Positions 32,963 through 50,377 of a stretch of DNA of 64,000 nucleotides are shown here, one piece after another (positions within the stretch are counted from its first letter, which is position 1; each line of letters opens with the position of its first letter). The DNA is from Tetramitus jugosus (lineage: Eukaryota > Heterolobosea > Eutetramitea > Acrasida > Vahlkampfiidae): NCBI GenBank assembly GCA_937625935.1, contig OW569360.1:465000-528999 (forward strand), read 5' to 3'. The position numbers were made by a program, and so were the translations under genes. The notes beneath the pieces were generated by a model. It saw only the letters and a program-made list of their open reading frames with translations, did not search any database and was not told where the DNA came from.

Positions 32963-33217
32963 AAATTTCTTGAGCAGTTTTCAGCAGAAGATGTCATAGC
33001 AGGAGCAGTCGCTTGAAGGAGCTAAGCTTCTATTCACCGTGTCCTCTCGACAAGACCTCGTTGATGAATGTAAGAGCAAAGGGGTTTCACTCAAGACCTG
33101 GAAAAATACAAACTGTTTCGTCGATGTTGAGCCGCAATTTCTCACAAAACTCCTCTTGAGATTCTCACGCAAGAAAACATTTGCCACCATTTGGAGTATC
33201 AAATAACAATATCAACA

Positions 33218-36200
33218 ATGCGAAGAATTGCTTGTGGAGATAAGAGGAGAGGAATCCTATTCCCACTTCTCTCTATGCACTTGATAACGAGTCCAACAAC
33301 CGGTCGTACATCTTCTATTTTGGGCACAACAACAACAACGCGTGATCAGACACACATAAGAAGCTTTGCTTTGGTTCAGAGTCGAGCGTTTTCTGGAAGT
33401 GCTAGTTCCCGTGTGTTTTCTCGACCAAAAACAAGTGACTCTATGCAAAACAAGTATCCTTTCTCACATCAACAGACTTTAAAAGGAATGAAGAGCTTTC
33501 ATACTCAATTGAGTTGTTCATTGTCTACCTCCCAGCAGTTGAACCCTGCCGATGATCATGTTGTTGTTGATGATGATGATGACGACTATCAACCACAAAC
33601 AAATGAATTCTATACACGTATGCCCACATTTCATTCCACAATAGATGAACAAAAGGACAAATTTCAGATTGATCAATCGTTTGTGGATCAGTTTGCAAAT
33701 AGGCATGAGAGTCCATTCGGATTCAACGGTCTAGGTGAAGTAGTATATCAGAGAACTTACTCTAGAGTGAAGCCCGATACTCAGGAGAAGGAGCAATGGT
33801 ATGAGACGGTGCAGAGAGTAGTTAACGGTTGTTTTAATATGCAAAAACATTGGCTCGAACAGCAACATCTCACATGGAACGAAACTGAGATGCAAGTTAC
33901 GGCTCAGGACATGTACACAAGAATGTTTGAAATGAAGTTTTTACCACCTGGAAGAGGATTATGGGCAATGGGATCTCCAATTACAGAAGAAAGAGGATTG
34001 TTTGCCGCTTTGAATAATTGCGCATTTGTTAGCACAGAAGATATTGCAAAAGACCCGTCCAAGCCTTTTATCTTTTTGATGGACATGGCAATGTTGGGAG
34101 TGGGTGTTGGATTCGATACGAAGGGTGCAGGAACTCTTCAAGTTCGAGGACCAAAACGCAATTCCTCAAAGAAAGACTATCACTATATTATCCCTGACTC
34201 TAGGGAGGGATGGGTACAGTCCGTGAAGTTGTTGATTGACTCCTTTTTTACGAAAAGTTATGGAAATGTAGTGTTTGATTATAGTCTAATCAGGCCAGAA
34301 GGAGCCCCTATTCGCGGGTTTGGAGGTGTTAGTTCGGGTCCTACCGCACTACAATCATTACATCACGAACTCAAAGATATTCTAACAAAATCAATAGGTT
34401 CAAATCTAAGTATCACTGCCATCGTAGACATTATGAATTTGATTGGTAAGTGTGTGGTATCGGGAAATGTTCGCAGATGTGTCCCAGGCGATTCTTTAGT
34501 TCATACTCGCGATGGATTAATTCCTATCAGAGATGTTCGTGTCGGTCAAGAGGTGCTTACCTCTGATGGCTACAGAAGTGTAATCGATTGGTTTGATCAA
34601 GGAGAGAGAGAACTGGTGAAGATAGAGACGCTTGATGGGCATTTCATCTGCACACCGAATCATAGAATGCCTATTTTAAAAAACGCATCAAAGTATGAAT
34701 GGGTAGAAGCATCAAAATTACAACCTGGTGATCATTTAATAACTGCTCGAAAATCGATAGAAGGAACACATACACGATTACCAGATTGTAATACATCTCA
34801 ATCACAGAAAGTTGTGGTACCAGATCTTGACGAGTCAATATCGTGGCTCATAGGTTTCATTTCCTGTAGTTATCGCAATAGTGACCAGCCGCTCACATTC
34901 AACTTCTCCAACGAAGAATTCGCGATGGCTCATGTCATGAAGAATCAGCTACTAAGATTTGGTGTAGATGCAGAGGTGCAGGAGCTTTCAACAGGGTTTT
35001 TAGTAACTACTCACAGTATAACTCTAACTCAATATTTAATGAGCATCTTATTTGACAATAATCAATCTCCTCTGATTCCGGACTGTATATTACGATCGAT
35101 CACTTCTCAAAGATTGGCATTTGTTAGTGGAGTCATAGATGGATGTAACAGATTATCAGAGTATTTGTTGACGCATAAAAGTCATCATTACGTGCACTTG
35201 CTTCAAATTTTGCTCTACTCTTGCGGAGTGGAAACAAGATTGACCAGTGTTGATGATGACTTGTTCGGTTTGACCGTATTAAGTCAACACTCATTGAATG
35301 TATTATCATCGATAAAGCAACTCCATAGGATCCCGAGAAAGAGTTTCGATACCGCTTTGCTGAATAGCTTCCCGTTGAAATTCGTGGAGAATCAACAGGT
35401 AAGGGATCACTTGGCTGAGAAAAACGCAACTACGATTAGTATCGATGATTTTGAGGCAATGAATGGAGAGTGGAATCATTGTCCTGTTCAGGTTATTCAG
35501 GTGCATACACTATCTGGCACACGACACACCTATGATATTCAAGTTCAAGGCAATGAGGAATTTTTCTGCAATGGCTACCTGATTCATAACACTGCTGAAA
35601 TTGCTTTTGGAGATCATGAATCTGAGGAGTTTATGGATTTGAAGGATTATCAGAAGAATCCTCATCGAGGCGCTTATGGTTGGACATCTAATAACTCTAT
35701 ATTTGCAAAAATTGGAATGGACTACTATCCATCTTCTCAAAGAATAGCAAACAACGGAGAGCCAGGGTATGCTTGGTTGGAGAACATGCAGAACTATTCT
35801 CGAATGAATGGCACCGCTGATTATAAGGATATTAAGTCGAGAGGTGGTAATCCATGTCTGGAGCAAACATTAGAGAGTTATGAGTTGTGTTGTTTAGTTG
35901 AAACATTTCCGGCCAAACACGATTCACTAGACGACTTTATAAAAACTCTTCGTGTGGCATACCTGTACGCCAAAACTGTCACACTTGGAAAGACTCATTG
36001 GAGAGAAACGAATCAAGTGTTGTTGAGGAACAGAAGAATTGGATGCAGCATGTCTGGAATTGCTCAATTTTTGTCTCAACACGGAATAGATCAGCTAAAA
36101 CAATTCTGTGAGAAGGGATACAAGGCAATTCAAGATCTCGATGAGGAGTTTTCCAATATGTTTTCAATTCCTCGTAGCATCAAAACTACTTCCATTAAAC

Positions 36201-36748
36201 CGAGTGGAACTGTCAGTTTGCTCGCTGGAGCCACACCGGGCATGCACTATCCGGAGTCTAGGTTCTACATACGTCGGTTGAGAATATCAAAGAATTCTCC
36301 AATAGTTCAATCCTTGAAGGACGCAGGGTATCACGTCGAGGATGCCGAAACTGACCCTCAGTCTTGTGTGATCGAATTTCCAGTTGATGTGGGAGCAGGA
36401 ATTCGAACCGCAAGAGAGGTGTCGATGTGGGAACAGCTGAGCCTGGCCGCCTTTCTTCAGAGATATTGGGCTGATAATCAAGTGAGTTGCACAGTCACTT
36501 TTGATGCAAAGACAGAGGCGAATCAGATTGCTCCCGCTCTGAACTTTTTCCAATATCAATTGAAAGGAGTTAGTCTGTTGCCAAGATTGGATGGTTCTCA
36601 TGCCTATTCTCAAATGCCCTATGAAGCAATATCTGAGGATGTGTATCATCAAAAGGTGGCATCTATTCGTCCTTTTTCAAAACCGAACTCTCACCACGAG
36701 GATCCAGAAAGTGAAAAGTACTGTGACTCATCTGTGTGTTTGTTGTAA
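33218..36748 (+). CDS. Class II (adenosylcobalamin-dependent) ribonucleotide reductase with in-frame intein
   Basis: The 1,176-residue precursor, less a 371-residue intein, leaves about 805 residues, normal for monomeric RTPR enzymes. The ATG at 33218 is used; the first ~70 residues are Arg/Ser/Thr-rich and could be an organelle presequence. Enzyme motifs: N-N-C-A-F-V-S-T early; G-G-N-P-C-L-E with a second Cys in E-L-C-C-L-V-E-T-F-P (active-site and radical cysteines); K-P-S-G-T-V-S-L-L-A-G-A-T-P-G-M-H; and a C-terminal Cys-x4-Cys (C-D-S-S-V-C) that re-reduces the active site. It converts ribonucleotides to deoxyribonucleotides using vitamin B12 coenzyme, without oxygen. Most eukaryotes use class I instead. 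No intron is seen. Confidence 0.92.
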   Translation: MRRIACGDKRRGILFPLLSMHLITSPTTGRTSSILGTTTTTRDQTHIRSFALVQSRAFSGSASSRVFSRPKTSDSMQNKYPFSHQQTLKGMKSFHTQLSCSLSTSQQLNPADDHVVVDDDDDDYQPQTNEFYTRMPTFHSTIDEQKDKFQIDQSFVDQFANRHESPFGFNGLGEVVYQRTYSRVKPDTQEKEQWYETVQRVVNGCFNMQKHWLEQQHLTWNETEMQVTAQDMYTRMFEMKFLPPGRGLWAMGSPITEERGLFAALNNCAFVSTEDIAKDPSKPFIFLMDMAMLGVGVGFDTKGAGTLQVRGPKRNSSKKDYHYIIPDSREGWVQSVKLLIDSFFTKSYGNVVFDYSLIRPEGAPIRGFGGVSSGPTALQSLHHELKDILTKSIGSNLSITAIVDIMNLIGKCVVSGNVRRCVPGDSLVHTRDGLIPIRDVRVGQEVLTSDGYRSVIDWFDQGERELVKIETLDGHFICTPNHRMPILKNASKYEWVEASKLQPGDHLITARKSIEGTHTRLPDCNTSQSQKVVVPDLDESISWLIGFISCSYRNSDQPLTFNFSNEEFAMAHVMKNQLLRFGVDAEVQELSTGFLVTTHSITLTQYLMSILFDNNQSPLIPDCILRSITSQRLAFVSGVIDGCNRLSEYLLTHKSHHYVHLLQILLYSCGVETRLTSVDDDLFGLTVLSQHSLNVLSSIKQLHRIPRKSFDTALLNSFPLKFVENQQVRDHLAEKNATTISIDDFEAMNGEWNHCPVQVIQVHTLSGTRHTYDIQVQGNEEFFCNGYLIHNTAEIAFGDHESEEFMDLKDYQKNPHRGAYGWTSNNSIFAKIGMDYYPSSQRIANNGEPGYAWLENMQNYSRMNGTADYKDIKSRGGNPCLEQTLESYELCCLVETFPAKHDSLDDFIKTLRVAYLYAKTVTLGKTHWRETNQVLLRNRRIGCSMSGIAQFLSQHGIDQLKQFCEKGYKAIQDLDEEFSNMFSIPRSIKTTSIKPSGTVSLLAGATPGMHYPESRFYIRRLRISKNSPIVQSLKDAGYHVEDAETDPQSCVIEFPVDVGAGIRTAREVSMWEQLSLAAFLQRYWADNQVSCTVTFDAKTEANQIAPALNFFQYQLKGVSLLPRLDGSHAYSQMPYEAISEDVYHQKVASIRPFSKPNSHHEDPESEKYCDSSVCLL
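34478..35590 (+). mobile_element. Intein in the ribonucleotide reductase (371 residues)
   Basis: The intein starts at Cys421 of the precursor (after V-V-S-G-N-V-R-R) and ends at H-N (790-791), before Thr792 of T-A-E-I-A-F-G. Block A is C-V-P-G-D-S-L-V-H-T; block B is C-T-P-N-H-R-M with the Thr-x-x-His pair (His482); the C-terminal block is F-F-C-N-G-Y-L-I-H-N. All residues for standard self-splicing are present (Cys1, block-B His, penultimate His, terminal Asn, +1 Thr). Between them lie two LAGLIDADG-like helices, W-L-I-G-F-I-S-C and F-V-S-G-V-I-D-G. Removal joins V-R-R to T-A-E-I-A, a normal uninterrupted sequence in class II enzymes. Confidence 0.93.
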
Positions 36749-44966: not shown

Positions 44967-45655
44967 TCATTGAATTGATATATAGCATCTAGTAGTGCAT
45001 CCATCAGTTGTTGTGATCAAATCACCAACTCTAAATATTATATTCTTGTATGAAGCAGTTCTGAAGGACTTAATAGATGTCGTAGATGATCTTGCACAAT
45101 CTGAACATACTCTAGCTTTCAGTTGATCTGTGAGAGAGATGGAATCTTTCAGAACCAGATCATTATCATTCAATTGGTCCATTGTTGCCATATGCTTGAG
45201 AGCTTTGTACAGGATTGTTTTGGCATCATTGCGGTTATTGGTGTTAGTCAGCAGACGCTTCATTAGTTGCTTGGCTTCATATCTCATACAATATATACCA
45301 ACAAGTGGACCAAATGCTCTTATCGCTTCAACAAAATGCAGTCTGCAATGGGACTTGGGACAGAATGAATCTGGATAAGCTTTAGCCCACAAGTCCATAT
45401 GCGCTTTCAATAATTGGTCAAGTTTTGTGAGATCTGAATCAGTGAATGACCATTGCAGAGTGATCTGCAAGTACTCCAAGTGCTTCATCAGTGATCTGAA
45501 TTGAATACTATCTTTGATGTCTGACCATGCAGCTAATTGAGTACAAATGAATGGCATTAATGTTGAAAGTGAATACACCTGTCCTGCTGTTAACTCATTC
45601 GAACTTGGATTATTGTAGAACTTGTCTGAAACATCTGGTGGAACAAATGTCCCAG
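44967..45655 (-). pseudogene. Truncated copy of a CACTA-like transposase
   Basis: The minus frame (203 codons at 44967-45578, plus homologous codons up to about 45655) parallels the C-terminal part of the transposase at 51966-54188. Shared landmarks in order are D-L-x-K-L-D-x-L, K-A-Y-P-x-S-F-x-P-K-(S/T)-H, G-P-L-V-G-I and M-R-(Y/F)-E-A-K. The N-terminal zinc finger and all catalytic acidic residues are absent. The similarity is clearly diverged, so it is a relic of a related but older element, not a recent copy. Confidence 0.6.
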
Positions 45656-49140: not shown

Positions 49141-50259
49141 TTACAGACTCAAACTAATGATCTTCACTGCCTGGTAATCCTGATCAGATTTTGCAGCAAC
49201 GATTGCAGAAATATAATTTCTAATATCAGGACGTTCTTCTGGACAATAAATGCCACTCAATCTCTCTGTTAGAAATTTCTTTCTCTCATCATTCTCAGTG
49301 AGTTTTTGCAGTATTATCTTCATGACATTAATACCGTGTAGTGCACTGTTAATTCGATCATGTTGATCAGTATACTTTAAGAAGTCATAACTAATACCAA
49401 ATGCAACTTCAAATATTCCTGTTACTAATTCTCCTTCATCCTTATTTAGTGCTTGTATCTTTCTCTCATACATCTTTGGAGGTAAAATATTTTGTAATGT
49501 GTAACATACTATCCAGGCATCATTTGACGTGAAGCAGTTATCATATCGAATAAAATTAATGGCTTCGGCTAGCACCTTCTGGATTTCATAACACATAAGA
49601 AAACGATCGCTATATTTTTCCAGATCATTCATATAATCCCTGTAGAATTGTACTTTTTCAAGAGTTACTGTGATGTTGGATTTGGTTATATTATAAGCAA
49701 GTTGACGTAGCTTCATTACAGCGTTTGCATTCATCATGGATTGTGTCAAATCATCAGGATGAAAATGCCGAATAGGAATCAACTCACTTACTCTCTTGGT
49801 TACTGTATCAATCAACTGATCCACAGTCACCTTTGCTCCAATTACACTATGGATTAGATTAAAACCATTAAAATGTGCTTTAGAGAGAACAGTTGAAGCA
49901 TTTGTAATGCGACCATCTACTTTTCCTTTCATATCATTTGGGTTAGTGCCACACATATACACAGGGAGAATTTCCCCCTTATCAATCTTGTTTTGCAAAC
50001 AAATGTGAATGAACTCCTGTTCACACCAGTTACTGACACCACTGAAATATGTTGGTGATAGAAACACGATGTAACATTTCGCTGAGTCAATAGATGCAAA
50101 TATTCTCTCAGGAAATTTGTTTCCAATTTCAATTGTGTCATGACAGTAGTATGTGTGATAGTTTTGTAATTTCAAGGCGTTGGCTACTTGCTCAGCTACA
50201 ACACCTGTTTCTTGGGTTTTGAATGAAATGAAAACATCTGCCTTTGGTGCAATGGTCAT
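49141..50259 (-). CDS. TIR-domain protein
   Basis: A 372-residue protein; the ATG at 50259 places the TIR domain at the extreme N-terminus. Residues about 6-135 give D-V-F-I-S-F-K (box 1), a B-B loop with I-E-I-G-N-K-F, and S-N-W-C-E-Q-E-F, whose Glu occupies the catalytic position of NAD-cleaving TIR domains (SARM1, plant and bacterial TIRs). The remaining 235 residues are all-helical with no recognised domain, and could be an oligomerisation or sensing module. Expected activity is NAD+ hydrolysis or adapter signalling in cell defence. It is head-to-head with the membrane protein at 50378. Confidence 0.8.
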   Translation of the reverse strand: MTIAPKADVFISFKTQETGVVAEQVANALKLQNYHTYYCHDTIEIGNKFPERIFASIDSAKCYIVFLSPTYFSGVSNWCEQEFIHICLQNKIDKGEILPVYMCGTNPNDMKGKVDGRITNASTVLSKAHFNGFNLIHSVIGAKVTVDQLIDTVTKRVSELIPIRHFHPDDLTQSMMNANAVMKLRQLAYNITKSNITVTLEKVQFYRDYMNDLEKYSDRFLMCYEIQKVLAEAINFIRYDNCFTSNDAWIVCYTLQNILPPKMYERKIQALNKDEGELVTGIFEVAFGISYDFLKYTDQHDRINSALHGINVMKIILQKLTENDERKKFLTERLSGIYCPEERPDIRNYISAIVAAKSDQDYQAVKIISLSL

Positions 50260-50377
50260 CCTGATGATGTTTTTTTCCTGACGTGTGATTGAGTTTGTTG
50301 AAGTGTTTTTTGTAGTATTTAAAAATAGCTGATGATTCCTGTCGGAATTGCGAGCACAAAAAAAACAAAATACAAAC
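50260..50377. promoter_or_regulatory. Compact divergent promoter of the TIR and membrane-protein genes
   Basis: Only 118 bases separate the two start codons. CAAAAAAAACAAAATACAA precedes the plus-strand ATG. A shared promoter is inferred from the spacing; no factor site is identifiable. Confidence 0.45.

Follow-up and report, generated by a model that had tools for sequence, protein, structure and literature searches.

The gene for a ribonucleotide reductase (RNR) near one end of a Tetramitus jugosus contig raises the question of whether a self-splicing intein can reside in a nuclear RNR gene and, if so, whether it still works and how it arrived. Our answer, which we hold with high confidence, is that the nuclear gene of a monomeric B12-dependent reductase carries a class 1 (Cys1) intein that would splice itself out, whose endonuclease has decayed and which appears to have been acquired horizontally.

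Genomic setting and host enzyme

The window, by which we mean the whole 64-kb stretch of DNA analysed, constitutes the last 64 kb of contig C17 (528,999 bases) in an assembly of 26.35 Mb and 56 contigs. The host gene and the contig end were delineated as follows.

33218..36748, + strand: intein-bearing monomeric class II (adenosylcobalamin-dependent) ribonucleoside-triphosphate reductase, nuclear gene, assigned by TIGR02505 and PDB 1l1l; the first ATG is predicted from the sequence
33218..34477, + strand: N-extein, whose basic N-terminal extension may be a mitochondrial presequence, from alignment with inteinless reductases
35591..36745, + strand: C-extein, whose first residue is the +1 Thr; it contains C889, aligned with the thiyl Cys, as well as C900 and the C-terminal pair C1178 and C1183, from alignment
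63142..64000, + strand: telomere-like (TTTGGG)n array with occasional TTTGGGG units at the contig end, read from the sequence

The ORF at 33191-36748 on the forward strand is open over its entire 1185 codons. A preliminary description of the locus had assigned it to the class II RNRs, and this assignment was upheld: the product scores 349.8 bits against the TIGR02505 equivalog profile (cut-off 340.05) and matches PDB 1l1l at 4.2e-91. Pfam matches comprise PF17975, PF02867 and the class II insertion domain, PF21995. Membership in the monomeric RTPR/NrdJm group is supported, and dependence on adenosylcobalamin is predicted. C277, C889, C900, C1178 and C1183 are invariant in an alignment of eight reductase rows; C889 and C900 have aligned counterparts in the L. 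leichmannii enzyme, and the alignment to PDB 1l1l ends before the C-terminal pair. We assume that these residues, including the thiyl Cys C889, play the roles of their L. leichmannii counterparts and that C1178/C1183 correspond to its C-terminal Cys pair. The host enzyme retains its aligned catalytic Cys residues on either side of the intein, which favours the reading adopted here. The first 60 residues contain nine K+R against two D+E, and the hydrophobic moment over 18 residues reaches at most 0.33; the basic N-terminal extension is possibly a mitochondrial targeting signal.

The nuclear, eukaryotic location proposed earlier was borne out by the telomere-like array, the eukaryotic neighbours and the 26-Mb assembly. 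Neighbouring genes in the window encode an M1 aminopeptidase, an Alg9-like mannosyltransferase, a REJ/PKD/EGF membrane protein and TIR proteins. The accompanying claim that the flanking genes contain introns was checked in part: one neighbouring gene has a GT-AG intron-like stretch near 29.3-29.5 kb, identified by eye from the sequence alone. That the reductase gene is instead a prokaryotic or viral contaminant, or a mis-assembly, is scarcely credible. Related inteinless reductases are indeed common in viral contigs (for example L190, with T4-like neighbours by eye), yet this gene lies on a 529-kb, telomere-capped contig among eukaryotic genes, including those for the M1 peptidase, the mannosyltransferase and the REJ/PKD protein. 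The reductase has an N-terminal extension, as does P0028, its sister in the N-extein tree, and third-position GC is similar in the intein (GC3 0.372) and the exteins (0.354 and 0.392). Contamination was rejected on telomere, neighbours and composition. The intein value, which falls between those of the exteins, is consistent with long residence.

The telomere-side part of the window also encodes two TIR-domain proteins (49141-50427 and 58432-60336). Two further ORFs, at 44967-45578 and 51966-54188, are related to each other (43% over 130 aa), have no Pfam match and perhaps represent a repeated subtelomeric family. Rfam and tRNA scans of the 64-kb window found nothing.

The intein and its predicted activity

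The insert and its splicing elements are the following.

34478..35590, + strand: 371-aa intein lying between residues R429 and T801 of the ORF, defined by a PF14890 match above cut-off and by borders shared with relatives
34478..34480, + strand: Cys1, which would act as nucleophile in the first step of splicing, from the sequence
34649..34663, + strand: block B, C-T-P-N-H (T59, H62), from column conservation
35528..35536, + strand: block F, T-Y-D (T351, D353), from column conservation
35561..35590, + strand: block G, FFCNGYLIHN, in which His370 is penultimate and Asn371 terminal, from the sequence

The segment is exactly 371 codons long and in frame, with Cys first, His-Asn last and Thr following. 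When aligned with eukaryotic and metagenomic reductases that have no intein, the protein is collinear except for a break exactly at VRR/TAEIAF. PF14890 (Intein_splicing) matches at 40.4 bits, above its curated cut-off of 35.8, and TIGR01445 (intein_Nterm) at 22.1 bits, just below its cut-off of 24.5; the top PDB matches of the insert are themselves inteins (the Spl DnaX mini-intein and gp41-1). The account in the preliminary description of an in-frame interruption of that length with all splicing blocks proved exact in coordinates, Cys1, TPNH, His-Asn and +1 Thr.

Same-site inteins were parsed in sets of n=136 and n=240. In the larger set T59 is kept in 238/240 and H62, T351 and D353 in 240/240 each, while the parser itself demanded Cys1, a penultimate His/Ser and a terminal Asn, so that the constancy of those residues is no evidence. 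The +1 residue is Ser in 205/239 and Thr in 34/239; many inteins react more slowly with Thr than with Ser or Cys at this position, which is a point against our reading. The conserved-site in-frame insert, Cys1, the TxxH of block B (TPNH), the HN/T junction and the splicing-domain profile are the marks of a class 1 intein, and the segment is a true member of that class that very probably splices.

The open 1113-nt frame is not due to chance, since none of 2000 base shuffles was free of stops and the other frames are stop-rich (33 and 28 stops in the other two forward frames, 25 in the one reverse frame counted). We also considered, and rejected, a spliceosomal intron that would remove 34478-35590 at the RNA level. 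GT-AG introns are probable in this organism, as the class II paralogue on contig C40 has a 44-nt intron-like stretch (GTATGT...CTAATAC...TAG; L007, from about 1956-1964) 1 base upstream of the same site. Nevertheless, 0/37 in-frame GT..AG pairs enumerated no more than about 60 nt from the two borders yield GNVRRTAEIAF, and all 1113 nt are open and encode conserved intein residues, which makes an intron extremely improbable. The RNA-type insert of C40 and the protein-type insert studied here nearly coincide in position within a single genome.

In the pathway that we propose, the entire 1185-codon frame would be translated, and the Hint domain would activate the Arg429-Cys1 bond for an N-S acyl shift aided by Thr59/His62. 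The N-extein would then pass to the +1 Thr by transesterification, cyclisation of Asn371, with His370, would release the intein, and an O-N shift would leave a seamless VRR-TAEIAF enzyme. These steps are the standard chemistry of class 1 inteins. The central homing-endonuclease domain would be a decayed remnant and the intein now inherited passively.

Decay of the endonuclease motifs, which was absent from the preliminary description, is visible at two positions.

34844..34879, + strand: degenerate first LAGLIDADG motif WLIGFISCSYRN, with S at the acidic position
35120..35152, + strand: degenerate second LAGLIDADG motif FVSGVIDGCNR, in which the DxDG of many relatives is replaced by DGCN

In the acidic column of the first motif T. 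jugosus has Ser, where same-site inteins have D (169/240) or N (41/240); the second motif is poorly aligned in the 240-intein set. Two motifs with catalytic acids define a LAGLIDADG enzyme, and T. jugosus reads ISCS and IDGCN. No LAGLIDADG endonuclease Pfam domain was found in the intein at E 0.001, and PF14528 is present in 20/24 reductase relatives from the intein search (precomputed Pfam list, which includes proteins carrying multiple inteins). Both motifs are intact by eye in 12/20 inspected relatives, L029 not being among the 12. Between the T. jugosus intein and that of the aphelid Amoeboaphelidium occidentale, identity is 66/100 over residues 1-100 and 19/36 in the C-terminal part, versus 55/176 in the endonuclease region, as expected for splicing that was kept after the endonuclease died. 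With its splicing residues kept and both motifs without catalytic acids, the intein probably splices but cannot home.

An intein that no longer splices, leaving the gene dead or yielding two truncated polypeptides, would be compatible with the condition of the other reductase genes. Besides the intein-bearing gene, the genome has the following class II sequences.

G000:C16:408802-410896, C4:4661-6300, C40:287958-289161 and C18:515811-515933: class II RNR copies or pieces lacking the intein, with disrupted frames or stops; single segments are 41-74% identical to the intein-bearing enzyme

The C16 and C4 copies run through the insertion site without an intein. C16 is split between two frames, and C4 and C40 have stops, some of which may be intronic in C40; all three are apparently decayed or partial. 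Both the large and the small subunit of a class I reductase are also encoded, so survival does not strictly depend on intein splicing. However, the splicing residues and the 1185-codon frame are intact here while the endonuclease motifs have decayed, and a dead gene should lose both; we regard a non-splicing intein as very improbable and retain the reading of an active one.

Two class I large-subunit-like frames with similar scores lie near contig starts (C37:5436-6230 and C20:6672-7466) and match only parts 167-336 and 460-523 of the profile. No second intein was found in the genome: only one passes PF14890, and the intein query matches only itself. A 242-aa ORF (L010:1375-2100; G000:C12:24643-25098) has a Hint module (PF01079, 141.9 bits) and an intein score of 21.3 against the cut-off of 35.8; it probably encodes a Hedgehog/Hog-like autoprocessing protein.

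Same-site inteins and a probable transfer into the nucleus

A search with the intein region returned 26 proteins, 24 reductases and two of SufB type. RR/C...N/[ST]A borders are shared by 24/26, of which 22 were parsed by script (20 distinct) and two, P0003 and P0020, by hand. The only named eukaryote among the 26 is A. occidentale (P0004, hypothetical protein MP638_006524), and it is again the only one among the best 120 of the 170 matches to its own intein, the rest being unnamed or bacterial. The two eukaryotic inteins share the exact insertion site, +1 Thr, Cys1...HN and degenerate LAGLIDADG motifs, but they are 36.7% identical and differ in length (347 aa versus 371 aa in T. jugosus), the aphelid intein is unannotated, and the host reductases do not pair in free trees. 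The N-extein is at least 55% identical to that of T. jugosus in 13/136 fetched intein-matching proteins, in one of them over 33 residues only.

Among viral sequences, 108 IMG/VR loci matched and 80 were kept; an intein was parsed in 53/80 and not in 27/80, and in 11 of 13 inspected loci from the latter group the intein match comes right after the N-extein. L045 and L046 have no intein match with the T. jugosus query, though by motif L045 contains a short insert of the Cys...His-Asn form. L030 belongs to a T4-like phage (Gp23), and the L029 locus encodes a 2C_adapt protein, which we take to be typical of giant viruses. Phage, giant-virus-like and metagenomic inteins at this site share architecture and splicing blocks with the T. 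jugosus intein (identity 34.1% for L030, 34.0% for L029 and 33.3% for P0014); unlike it, many keep the LAGLIDADG motifs and most have +1 Ser, and the T. jugosus host gene is nuclear. Only 10 of 50,697 named phage records match the intein, none over 80% of it; among them is Thermus phage phiLo, in which a ribonucleoside-triphosphate reductase aligns with residues 1-88 of the intein at 42%. A 'likely intein' is noted in NrdJm, a monomeric class II RNR, of Thermus virus g20c in the accessible text of PMC6459318. A viral scan with P0013 as the query found nothing.

Of 107 matching loci in GTDB genomes, the 80 retained come mostly from cyanobacteria, with a few from Chloroflexota and one from a Lokiarchaeota MAG. 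The comparison of insertion sites with prokaryotic class II reductase inteins that had been recommended earlier showed that cyanobacterial and Chloroflexota inteins (for example L100 and L101) occupy the same site, although their best-segment identity to the T. jugosus ORF is 24-30% and they fall in a separate part of the intein tree. Prp8 inteins, from a different host gene, match weakly, their structures at E 0.05-0.15. One metagenomic class II reductase, P0002, has similar inteins at two different sites, and these are sisters (99/97), which we read as movement within one gene.

The T. jugosus and aphelid inteins are sisters on long branches in three careful trees (98/91 with the bootstrap unsettled, 96/94 and 100/98) and in a quick tree (SH-aLRT 91). 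The host enzymes behave differently: in the N-extein tree the T. jugosus reductase pairs with P0028 (100/97), the closest reductase found, which is metagenomic and has no intein, and the aphelid host lies elsewhere with weak support. The C-extein tree unites T. jugosus, P0028 and the C16 copy (SH-aLRT 93). Neither the reductase of N. gruberi nor that of N. fowleri carries an intein; the two enzymes share 86.8% identity, against 64% with the T. jugosus C-extein. In the same assembly, adenosylhomocysteinase and glucokinase have PDB 5v96 and 6da0, both Naegleria fowleri entries, as their top matches, the former by a narrow margin (822.5 versus 810.6 bits). A heterolobosean related to Naegleria is therefore likely as the source, and Naegleria itself was rejected. 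Viral contigs with inteinless class II reductases (L190 and others) lie within a 44-row portion of the N-extein tree that also contains the reductases of Naegleria, oomycetes and T. jugosus (85/91).

That the intein or the entire gene was transferred, as suggested at the outset, is likely, and is favoured because the distribution is patchy; the intein would have come from a viral, bacterial and protist pool of same-site inteins. An ancient intein with repeated loss is also possible. An intein ancestral to eukaryotic class II reductases and lost in most lineages would account for the sister relationship of the T. jugosus and aphelid inteins, and a clade of their hosts is not rejected (p-AU 0.27). 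Against such descent, the insertion site is empty by pattern in 118 of the best 120 of 7598 hosts and by eye in one more (P0089), with the P0147 site unresolved and the intein-bearing hosts discussed here lying outside this best-120 list; the host sister P0028 likewise has no intein. P0202, P0205, P0209, P0219 and P0233, reductases with long N-terminal extensions and presumably eukaryotic, have a separate intein lineage. Forcing the aphelid intein into this lineage, a group named after the trees had been seen, is rejected (p-AU 0.004), and the grouping of T. jugosus, the aphelid and this lineage is borderline (p-AU 0.053). Ancestral presence is on balance unlikely, though it carries real weight, and we retain transfer as the preferred reading.

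The branch next to the T. jugosus and aphelid pair is unstable. A giant-virus origin was not adopted: an intein clade of T. jugosus, the aphelid and the giant-virus-like L029 is not rejected (p-AU 0.42) and one tree places P0196 + L029 next to the pair (81/84), but another has P0013 + P0003 instead. As a broader and doubtful proposal, class II RNR inteins at this site may move between protists, giant viruses and phages, with at least two entries into eukaryotic nuclei (T. jugosus + aphelid, and the P0205 lineage if eukaryotic); in T. jugosus the endonuclease would be dead, and splicing would have been retained in an enzyme that depends on B12 and may be mitochondrial, where it might serve as a conditional switch.

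A probable new host gene for nuclear inteins

The commonest hosts of nuclear inteins are Prp8, VMA1, RNA polymerase, ThrRS, GLT, CHS and eIF5B, according to the accessible text of a 2018 survey (Green et al. 2018, PMC5784728). That text places RNR inteins under viruses only, and its supplementary tables may hold a rare nuclear case. Seven intein-containing proteins are described for Naegleriavirus, and the accessible main text does not use the term 'ribonucleotide reductase' (PMC11043551). In the accessible parts of the open-access literature on Naegleria, Heterolobosea, aphelids, class II RNR and protist nuclear genomes, we found no report of a nuclear RNR intein (including PMC2795772, PMC11043551, PMC7765530, PMC6459318 and PMC12918982). 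An intein in a nuclear RNR is thus provisionally undescribed. The earlier suggestion to that effect holds within this literature, but an unannotated same-site relative is already present in the public A. occidentale protein. The novelty is one of location (the host gene and probably the lineage) and not of the kind of intein.

The finding adds ribonucleotide reductase, a viral-only host in the accessible text of the survey (PMC5784728), to the hosts of nuclear inteins, and probably adds a new eukaryotic branch to their distribution. An empty site in the relative P0028 and in the paralogues, together with a sister intein at that site in a distantly related eukaryote, makes this a tractable case for studying how inteins enter nuclei and persist there. 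Should the N-terminal extension direct the enzyme to mitochondria, the place and timing of splicing relative to import become a question as well.
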